Assembly: GCF_000316645.1 (NCBI RefSeq)
Contig: NC_019684.1
Location: forward strand, 434,001 to 498,000
DNA length: 64,000 nt
Source of the DNA: Nostoc sp. PCC 7524
GTDB taxonomy: Bacteria > Cyanobacteriota > Cyanobacteriia > Cyanobacteriales > Nostocaceae
Reading direction: 5' to 3'
Shown here: piece by piece, positions 49,701 to 52,177 of the stretch
How the letters are laid out: the number at the start of each line of letters is the position of its first letter
How positions within the stretch are numbered: the stretch's first letter is position 1
Program-made: the position numbers and the translations under genes
Notes under the pieces: model-generated
Told to the model about the DNA's origin: nothing
The model's input: only the letters and a program-made list of their open reading frames with translations
Database searches by the model: none

Positions 49701-52177
49701 TCAAAGTCCCCCTTTTTAAGGGGGATTTAGGGGGATCAAATGATTTGCGTACAAACAGTTTAGATTTAGTATTAGAGATTGTTGTCAAGTCAGGCTTAGT
49801 GGTGTTGCTACCAGAAAACCCAGCCGACCGTTATCAACTGGTGCATGACTATTTAGCCAACTTTATCCGCCAGCAACAAGAACCGAAGTTAAAACAGGTA
49901 ATGGCGGAACTGGAAAAAGAGCGAGAACAACGAAAGATTAGTGAAGCTAAACTCAATAAATTTCTCAAACGCGCCTTGTTTGGCTCGGTAGCCGCAGGTA
50001 TAGTAATGGCGATTGTGACTACTGTAGCAGTGCGATCGGCTTACGAGGCAGACAGACAAAAAGAAAACGCTGAAGTGAATGAAATTAACGCCTTAAATAA
50101 TTCTTCCAACGCGTTTTTACTCTCTAACCAACACCCAGATGCTTTGTTAGAAGCATTAAGAGCAGGTGACAAGCTCAAAAGTAGAACCTGGACACAGGAA
50201 GTAAGCAAGACCAAAACGCAAACTAAGGCAACCTTATACCAAGCAGTTTATTTAAAACCAGGGGAAAAGAAACAAAATCGTAGTTTTGAAGTTAATACCT
50301 TAAAAGGTCATAGCGGTGAGGTTATTAGTGTGGCCTACAGTCCCGATGGCAAATACTTAGCTTCTGTCAGTGATGACAACACCATCAAGATTTGGGAGAG
50401 CAGCACAGGTAAAGCTGTGCAAACTCTCCAGGGTCATAGCAGTGCGGTCTATAGTGTGGCCTACAGTCCCGATGGCAAATACTTAGCTTCTGCCAGTGAT
50501 GACAACACCATCAAAATTTGGGAGAGCAGCACAGGTAAAGTTGTGCAAACTCTCCAGGGTCATAGCAGTGCGGTCTATAGTGTGGCCTACAGTCCCGATG
50601 GCAAATACTTAGCTTCTGCTAGTAGTGACAACACCATCAAAATTTGGGAGAGCAGCACAGGTAAAGCTGTGCAAACTCTCCAGGGTCATCGCAGTGTCGT
50701 CTATAGTGTAGCCTACAGTCCCGATAGCAAATACTTAGCTTCCGCCAGTTGGGACAACACCATCAAAATTTGGGATCTCAGCACAGGTAAAGTTGTGCAA
50801 ACTCTCCAGGGTCATAGCGATTCAGTCTATAGTGTGGCCTACAGTCCCGATGGCAAATACTTAGCTTCCGCTAGTAGTGACAACACCATCAAAATTTGGG
50901 ATATCAGCACAGGTAAGGCTGTGCAAACTTTCCAGGGTCATAGCCGTGATGTCAATAGTGTGGCCTACAGTCCCGATGGCAAACACTTAGCTTCTGCCAG
51001 TTTGGACAACACCATCAAAATTTGGGATATCAGCACAGGTAAAACTGTTCAAACTCTCCAGGGTCATAGCAGTGCGGTCATGAGTGTGGCCTACAGTCCC
51101 GATGGCAAACACTTAGCTTCTGCAAGTGCGGACAACACCATCAAAATTTGGGATATCAGCACAGGTAAAGTTGTGCAAACTCTCCAGGGTCATAGCCGTG
51201 TGGTCTATAGTGTAGCCTACAGTCCCGATAGCAAATACTTAGCTTCCGCCAGTGGGGACAACACCATCAAAATTTGGGATATCAGCACAGGTAAAACTGT
51301 TCAAACTCTCCAGGGTCATAGCAGTGTGGTCATTAGTGTAGCCTACAGTCCCGATGGCAAATACTTAGCTTCCGCCAGTAGTGACAACACCATCAAAATT
51401 TGGGATATCAGCACAGGTAAAGCTGTTCAAACTCTCCAGGGTCATAGCCGTGGGGTTTATAGTGTGGCCTACAGTCCCGATAGCAAATACTTAGCTTCCG
51501 CCAGTAGTGACAACACGATCAAAATTTGGGATCTCAGCACAGATAAAGCTGTTCAAACTCTCCAGGGTCACAGCAGTGAGGTCATTAGTGTTGCCTACAG
51601 TCCCGATGGCAAATACTTAGCTTCCGCCAGTTGGGACAACACCATCAAAATTTGGGATATCAGCACAAGTAAAGCTGTGCAAACTCTCCAGGATCATAGC
51701 AGTCTGGTCATGAGTGTGGCCTACAGTCCCGATGGCAAATACTTAGCTGCCGCCAGTCGGAACAGCACTATCAAAATTTGGGATATCAGCACAGGTAAAG
51801 CGGTGCAAACTCTCCAGGGTCATAGCCGTGAGGTTATGAGTGTTGCCTACAGTCCCAATGGCAAATACTTAGCTTCCGCCAGTAGTGACAACACCATCAA
51901 AATTTGGGATTTAGATGTCGATAATTTATTACGCAGTGGTTGCGACTTACTCAACAATTACCTCATCTTCCATCCAGAGGTGTTAGAGGAGTTATCATCA
52001 TGCCAAACACCAGCGCGGTTAGTTCCAGCCGCAACGGTGTTAGTCATCCAAGGTGAGAAGTTGGCGCGAGTTGGTGATATTTCCGGCGCAGTTGCTAAGT
52101 TCCGTCAGGCGCAGCAGTGGGATCAGAGTTTGAAATTTGACCCAGAGGCGAAGGCGCAGGCGTTGGCGAATAAATGA
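46712..52177 (+). CDS. STAND-type ATPase with N-terminal module, TPR-like region and 13 WD40 repeats
   Basis: 1821 residues. Residues 1-170 are a conserved-looking cyanobacterial module ([30 protein letters not shown] text; LVVWIDD), P-loop-like but with no Walker A. About 235-500 is TPR-like. The STAND ATPase has Walker [11 protein letters not shown] (G555-S563) and Walker [14 protein letters not shown] (about 775). A hydrophobic segment at about 1090-1110 ([19 protein letters not shown]) may be a membrane anchor. Residues 1197-1742 are 13 WD40 units of 42 residues. The protein probably senses a ligand through the propeller and switches by ATP. In-frame repeat DNA is present in at least four places. 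The ATPase at 45285 is its likely partner. Confidence 0.9.
47341..47399 (+). repeat. Dispersed palindromic repeat inside the STAND coding region
   Basis: CCTCTC...GAGAGG (47341-47363) is followed by CCCCCTTCCC-TAGTA-GGGAAGGGGG (47375-47399). It encodes [19 protein letters not shown] text unlike the flanking helices, so it reads as inserted DNA kept in frame. Confidence 0.85.
48517..48595 (+). repeat. GGGGACT/GGGGATT heptamer array in STAND coding sequence
   Basis: About 11 heptamers translate as a 7-residue Gly/Trp/Asp repeat (GLGTGDW). They lie between Walker A and Walker B. Confidence 0.95.
48605..48892 (+). repeat. Coding 21-bp tandem repeat, about 14 units
   Basis: Units of 21 bases encode 7-residue repeats that drift from VSSSEAQ to HSHLEPE. 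The last five to six units are almost identical (CATTCTCACTTAGAACCCGA). A CCCCTGCTC heptamer-like run follows to about 48990. Confidence 0.95.
49663..49737 (+). repeat. 75-bp palindromic element inserted in frame (25 codons)
   Basis: Ends GATCCCCC and GGGGGATC, with inner perfect arms CTTAAAAAGGGGG (49679-49691) and CCCCCTTTTTAAG (49708-49720). It contributes [20 protein letters not shown] to the protein. It closely resembles a known kind of dispersed palindrome of cyanobacterial intergenic DNA. Confidence 0.92.
50300..51937 (+). repeat. Thirteen 126-bp tandem repeats encoding WD40 blades
   Basis: Each 126-bp unit encodes 42 residues of the form [20 protein letters not shown] then [18 protein letters not shown]. 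Most codons are identical between units, while residues 6, 7, 9 and 25 vary strongly. Confidence 0.98.

Follow-up and report, generated by a model that had tools for sequence, protein, structure and literature searches.

A 64 000-nucleotide stretch of the Nostoc sp. PCC 7524 genome (the window) encodes a STAND-type NTPase that ends in 13 closely similar WD40 units, and the blades of this array turn over between species while residues at published contact sites on one propeller face differ from unit to unit. In the one genome pair that allowed the comparison, this turnover belongs to the window copy and is explained neither by the fold nor by elapsed time, because a paralogous module with equally diverged flanks keeps its blades in one-to-one correspondence. 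We think the protein, whose build resembles that of immune-type switch proteins in animals and fungi, is rather more probably than not a ligand-recognition (NLR-like) STAND switch that works with a neighbouring P-loop ATPase, its sensing function being deduced from these patterns. The layout of the locus is given in table 1.

Table 1. Features of the WD40 locus and location of the paralogous module; window positions are counted from its first nucleotide.
Feature	Position	Strand	Basis or remark
Partner gene, 451-aa P-loop ATPase	45285..46640	+	Weak ATPase_2/KAP/nSTAND_NTPase5 resemblance
WD40-protein gene, whole	46712..52177	+	ORF list; 1821 aa
N-terminal alternating alpha/beta domain, aa 1-195	46712..47296	+	AlphaFold model; without Pfam match
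TPR region, ~aa 245-454	47444..48073	+	Pfam; AlphaFold helical pairs; Foldseek TPR matches
NTPase region and linker as far as the array	48305..50305	+	nSTAND1, PF20703, 1.9e-33
Walker A	48374..48400	+	Sequence
In-frame insert of 7-bp, 21-bp and 8-bp tandem repeats in the NTPase domain	48517..48995	+	Tandem Repeats Finder; relatives
Walker B	49043..49069	+	Sequence
Hydrophobic stretch, candidate membrane segment between NTPase and propeller	49976..50032	+	Sequence inspection; similar in L032
13-unit WD40 array	50306..51925	+	Units 1-12 of 126 bp, unit 13 of ~108 bp
C-terminal helical tail	51926..52174	+	Begins with the second half of the junction after unit 13
Paralogous module L108, PCC 7524	G000:C2:4363500-4372500		Differentiated 14-blade array

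The WD40 gene is a single open frame with the array at its C-terminal end; the start of the NTPase region was set from the AAA_16 match. A junction resembling the one after unit 13 also follows the last unit in those arrays of relatives that run into the tail. If the hydrophobic stretch spans the membrane, the propeller and the NTPase would lie on opposite sides of it. No Pfam model matched the N-terminal domain, and no known fold was gained for it by structural search: the best 50 Foldseek rows, from a query that was not the alpha/beta part alone, were mostly TPR structures. The AlphaFold prediction had a pTM of 0.52, with pLDDT from 85 to 64 across the five models and unit 6 poorly defined. 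Two dispersed repeat elements of palindromic character lie in frame within the coding sequence, at 49655-49745 and 47318-47417 (60 and 57 genome matches, respectively, some on both strands of one place); the first is also found at the corresponding place in L029.

The partner ATPase gene lies 71 bp upstream of the WD40 gene and is far more conserved than the N-terminal part of the WD40 protein. Of 69 related Nostocales loci, 56 have an ATPase match of 72-94% identity on the same strand, upstream of the gene for the WD40 protein; the L096 match is partial, and three of the 13 other loci have less than 700 bp of upstream sequence. By contrast, the N-terminal 500 residues of the WD40 protein reach 36-57% identity (best segment) in 66 of these loci. 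Within the genus, N-terminal matches of 78-88% occur in at least four of 12 other species, while G166 and G169 carry diverged copies (ATPase 83%); this distribution may look patchier than it is, since at most eight first-look candidates per genome were scored. In the relative G128 (L030), the gene is broken after ~300 residues, and a search of the 15-kb stretch for WD40 units found none; the end of the downstream frame resembles histidine-kinase sequence by eye.

Tandem Repeats Finder reports one array at 50306-51910 with a period of 126, 12.7 copies, 90% matches, no indels and a score of 2479. In a register where each unit begins at Gly-His (the GH register), there are 13 in-frame units starting at 50306+126(k-1), of which units 1-12 are full and unit 13 retains its first ~108 bp before giving way to the tail. 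The 12 full units share a mean DNA identity of 89.8% (84.9-96.8) and a mean protein identity of 83.4% (minimum 73.8%), with no identical pair in the array; ‘near-identical’, the term chosen in an earlier note made from the sequence alone, is a fair description. That note placed most of the differences between units at residues 6, 7, 9 and 25, which are positions 4, 5, 7 and 23 in the GH register, and it gave the residues at the last of these correctly (D D S W S L A G S S W R S). Across the 13 units, these positions hold four, seven, four and seven residue types, respectively. Positions 37 (A/V/T, plus L in the truncated unit 13; four types) and 32 (S/L/I; three types) vary besides, and position 25 is Asn in 12 of the 13 units. 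The same four positions vary most among related arrays: in the 19 arrays with at least nine 42-residue units, positions 5 and 23 each rank in the top four in 18, position 7 in 17 and position 4 in 11.

Partner-contacting residues on the top face of WD40 propellers have been described as R1-2, R1 and D-1 (PMC3419727), and positions 5, 7 and 23 are these sites; they fall at the d-a loop, the start of strand a and the b-c loop, respectively, a placement taken from the AlphaFold strand boundaries and that source, not from mapping on coordinates. We quantified selection with a hot-codon set chosen on the window array and then applied to the 18 other arrays, using 126-bp units only and dropping the last unit (32 arrays had at least three such units, 19 at least nine); units containing N were removed for pN/pS and kept in the entropy calculation. 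In the window, hot-codon pN is 0.582, against a pS of 0.137 in the rest of the unit (bootstrap 95% 0.063-0.213). At positions 5, 7 and 23, replacement change outstrips pS elsewhere in the unit in all of the 19 arrays but L056 and L084 (17 of 19, or 16 of 18 without the window), and the remainder of the unit has pN below pS in every one of the 19 (median ratio 0.32, highest 0.82). When same-index blades of the closest species pair, L051 and L072, are compared, the four hot codons show 15 replacements and no silent change, against 31 replacements and 22 silent changes elsewhere (Fisher p 0.0014). The suggestion that diversity is selected on one propeller face is thus supported by the rates and by the identity of the sites.

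Silent change runs high at the hot codons of many arrays too (window 0.328), and part of the pattern may still come from a local mutation bias. Raised pS would also suit targeted mutagenesis, by a diversity-generating retroelement or something similar, as the maker of the hot codons, and such elements are known to diversify STAND proteins of multicellular bacteria (PMC10907252). We nevertheless consider this origin very improbable: none of 15 genome matches is a template-like near-copy of a unit (the best is 66% over 823 bp), and changes in the hot codons occur at each of the three bases, with no sign of an adenine origin. No reverse transcriptase was found among the 10 neighbouring ORFs scanned.

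Several features of the window array fit exchange between its units, as the earlier note had proposed. Among informative site pairs, 43 of 91 fail the four-gamete test, linkage between sites drops with distance inside the unit (permutation p 0.004) and adjacent units resemble each other more than units far apart do (p 0.008); some of the four-gamete failures may also stem from repeated mutation. Unit similarity has no lag-7 peak (0.890 versus 0.898 permuted), and a seven-blade super-repeat was accordingly set aside. Exchange with other genes of the genome was also rejected, there being no near-identical unit at another locus among the same 15 DNA matches.

Between species, plain DNA identity gives no uniform picture. 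Against L037, the ATPase, N-terminal and NTPase parts of the window are 86-88% identical and the array 73%. Such a gap is not always seen: the array is 75.3% identical to that of G162 with the rest of the protein at 78%, and 86.6% identical to that of L038 (four units only) with flanks at 84-90%. Blade turnover is gradual, since the closest species keep corresponding blades and, over all arrays, the nearest unit lies in the same array for 144 of 223 units (12 of 12 in the window). Blades correspond at 13 of 14 places in L051/L072, where the flanks carry more silent change (0.144-0.235) than the array (0.062), and at eight of 14 in L049/L050. In four further loci (L060, L064, L069 and L073), which have no ATPase match upstream and share an unusual blade-spacing pattern, correspondence is 14 of 14 within L060/L064 and L069/L073, and two and four of 14 in two cross-pairs. 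As these comparisons are all between species, the description of exchange as ‘ongoing’ draws its support from other species, and it is tempered by the blades of the closest pair, which still correspond.

A key control for blade turnover comes from a second module of the same gene and domain order, present in both PCC 7524 (L108) and G162 (L109). Over the N-terminal and NTPase parts, the two genomes are 73% identical in the paralog and 74% in the window module. The blades of the paralog match one to one (14 of 14), whereas none of the 13 blades of the window array finds its best match at the same index, where identity (0.669) equals that at other indices (0.668). A shifted blade frame does not account for this: a shift of one gives two of 13, and when one lost unit is allowed, the best pairing stays within chance (0.688 versus 0.684 shuffled, p 0.25; interior units p 0.78), against 0.764 versus 0.514 shuffled for the paralog.

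Tandem arrays homogenise by themselves. It could therefore be argued that homogenization here is a by-product of the repeat structure and that the surface positions vary for lack of constraint, with no sensing involved; recent amplification is, moreover, common in WD40 propellers (PMC9218822). Unconstrained sites should not outpace silent ones, as the hot codons do in most arrays, and a paralog of the same fold and similar flank divergence shows no turnover. We therefore judge turnover without sensing to be unlikely and retain recognition as the preferred reading.

The earlier note took the 13 units, which do not make two seven-bladed propellers, as fitting copy-number change, and the relatives agree: 14 units are found in 21 of the 33 arrays scored (window included). 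Since 14 is the norm among scored relatives, the 13 in the window is a deviation, likely the loss of one unit. The 33 arrays were picked by eye as one frame running to the C-terminal tail; contig-end arrays, the frame-broken or stop-interrupted L042, L043 and L048, and L079, L087, L089, L096 and L097 were left out of the counts. One of the hits behind the only count of 15 (L103) is odd, lying 45 bp from the next. L034 has 14 by hand but stands outside the count list, and L035 is the same gene as L072. An assembly error hiding a true array of 14 units would give the same count, and the loss of one identical unit would leave no sign; lower counts also go with higher unit identity across 31 arrays (Spearman -0.68, p 2e-5), as collapse predicts. 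We find this doubtful, given a genome in three contigs with 99.97% completeness, an array that is 90% identical with no two units the same, and another array of 13 in L071 (a draft) at 84% identity.

A second repetitive feature lies between Walker A and Walker B, where an in-frame insert is built of short tandem repeats. Of 71 sequences scanned, 55 (window and L032 among them) had the two Walker motifs with 20 or more residues of insert and were analysed, the insert edges being set by a simple pattern. A 7- or 14-residue period rises above the shuffled 95% level in 42 of these 55; insert sequences differ between species, and the span from Walker A to Walker B ranges from 93 to 252 residues. 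In both copies of the stable paralog, the span is 92 and no such repeat is present. No published description of this tract was found in a limited literature search. Coupling of the insert with blade turnover was not supported on inspection, made without a statistic: L060, L064, L069 and L073 have long inserts yet array DNA identities of 0.66-0.75, and L076 and L093 have short spans with arrays that are still repetitive. It is conceivable, though we would not expect it, that the two-gene Nostocales STAND module diversifies at two places, the 14-blade contact face and the Walker A-B repeat tract, and that the fast copy is a HET-E-like bacterial locus generating recognition alleles in which both threshold and specificity evolve.

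The pattern itself is already in print for bacteria, in WRAP and in the highly repetitive WD40 proteins; the additions here are the control by the paralog and the insert in the NTPase domain. Hu et al. (2017, PMC5587647) describe bacterial Highly-Repetitive WD40 proteins, with internal identity above 0.7 and Nostoc among the genera, in which most sites are conserved and hot-spot sites diverse; the accessible part of that paper presents no exchange test or paralog control, and its gene-neighbourhood examples concern other WD40 genes. Unit identity in the window lies above both published thresholds (>70%, Hu; median >60%, Pereira and Lupas), and its nSTAND1-type ATPase stands beside a second NTPase gene, the adjacent P-loop ATPase, as in published cases; by these measures, the array belongs with the highly repetitive, recently amplified bacterial propellers. 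By sequence, the best PDB match to the window protein (E 1e-195) is 2YMU, the propeller of Npun_R6612 (WRAP) from Nostoc punctiforme PCC 73102, a STAND ATPase whose operon also encodes another NTPase (PMC9218822). Both proteins carry a C-terminal array of near-identical WD40 blades on a STAND ATPase beside an NTPase gene, and the recurrent Trp/Arg change of WRAP (PMC6805158) aligns with window position 7 (R1) in a sequence alignment. WRAP consists of 14 blades, each 41 residues long and almost unchanged from one to the next, against 13 of 42 in the window; with silent change of 0.137 between units outside the hot codons, the window array is not a brand-new amplification like WRAP, whose homologues are described as independently amplified (PMC9218822). 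The partners also differ, a TIR-STAND protein in WRAP according to the same source and a 451-residue P-loop ATPase here, which gave ATPase_2/KAP-like matches only and none to TIR. This comparison covers the array, the NTPase type and the partner.

The earlier note also pointed to the fungal HET-E/HNWD proteins, a family that controls self/non-self recognition, and the likeness is real but partial. An N-terminal domain, a STAND NTPase and homogenized WD40 units are common to both. Selected codons 7, 9, 25 and 27 are reported for HET-E/HET-D of Podospora anserina (PMC1805685); with the register matched on conserved codons 8 and 26, the first three are window positions 5, 7 and 23, whereas the equivalent of codon 27, position 25, is nearly fixed. 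Unit counts in HET-E/HNWD run from 2 to 15 and units move between loci, in contrast to the norm of 14 in the window family. The protein may thus work like HET-E/HET-D in scaffold, exchange and contact-face diversity. To judge by its domains, it is not a member of the HET-E/HNWD family, because its N-terminal 500 residues gave no Pfam match to a HET domain, its NTPase is of a different type (nSTAND1 117 bits versus NACHT 18 bits, under the NACHT cut-off) and no near-identical unit exists at another locus.

Pfam scanning of 10 neighbouring genes revealed mostly signalling genes and no evident defence island, and PADLOC found no established defence system, neither Avs nor another anti-phage STAND system, its hits being a WD40-driven HEAT-ARM_XIII and, for the partner ATPase, weak PDC-S20 and mad8. 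Further along, genes for vWA, PP2C phosphatase and kinase-TPR proteins stand in a row at 55108-59249 (Pfam), a set that resembles TerY-type phosphorylation triads. With response-regulator, histidine-kinase, phosphatase or kinase domains in six of the 10 scanned neighbours, the protein might instead be a fixed scaffold or signalling component of multicellular Nostoc, not an immune or recognition receptor, with slightly different cellular partners in each species; a blade number anchored at 14 and the existence of a stable paralog would suit such a role. We regard it as improbable, because two species of one genus no longer share corresponding blades, the gene is interrupted in G128 and the distribution across the genus is patchy.

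Returning to the recognition switch, we suggest that unequal exchange and short conversion tracts between units would keep the propeller scaffold uniform, while selection would hold the contact residues on one face different between units, so that new binding faces could arise without breaking the fold. The ligand on this face would be a variable one, perhaps a self/non-self marker or a protein of a phage, parasite or competitor; its binding would free the NTPase, which would oligomerize and set off a response by way of the partner ATPase and the N-terminal domain. Of the two propellers formed by 13 units, the C-terminal one would have the usual seven blades and the N-terminal one a blade fewer. 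Proteins of this kind are already known from bacteria, and the one in the window is probably a sensor that evolves fast. Its paralog in the same genomes supplies a built-in control for measuring a bacterial case of the HET-E strategy, a uniform scaffold with a changing contact face, and makes the cause of blade renewal directly testable in a named culture-collection strain.
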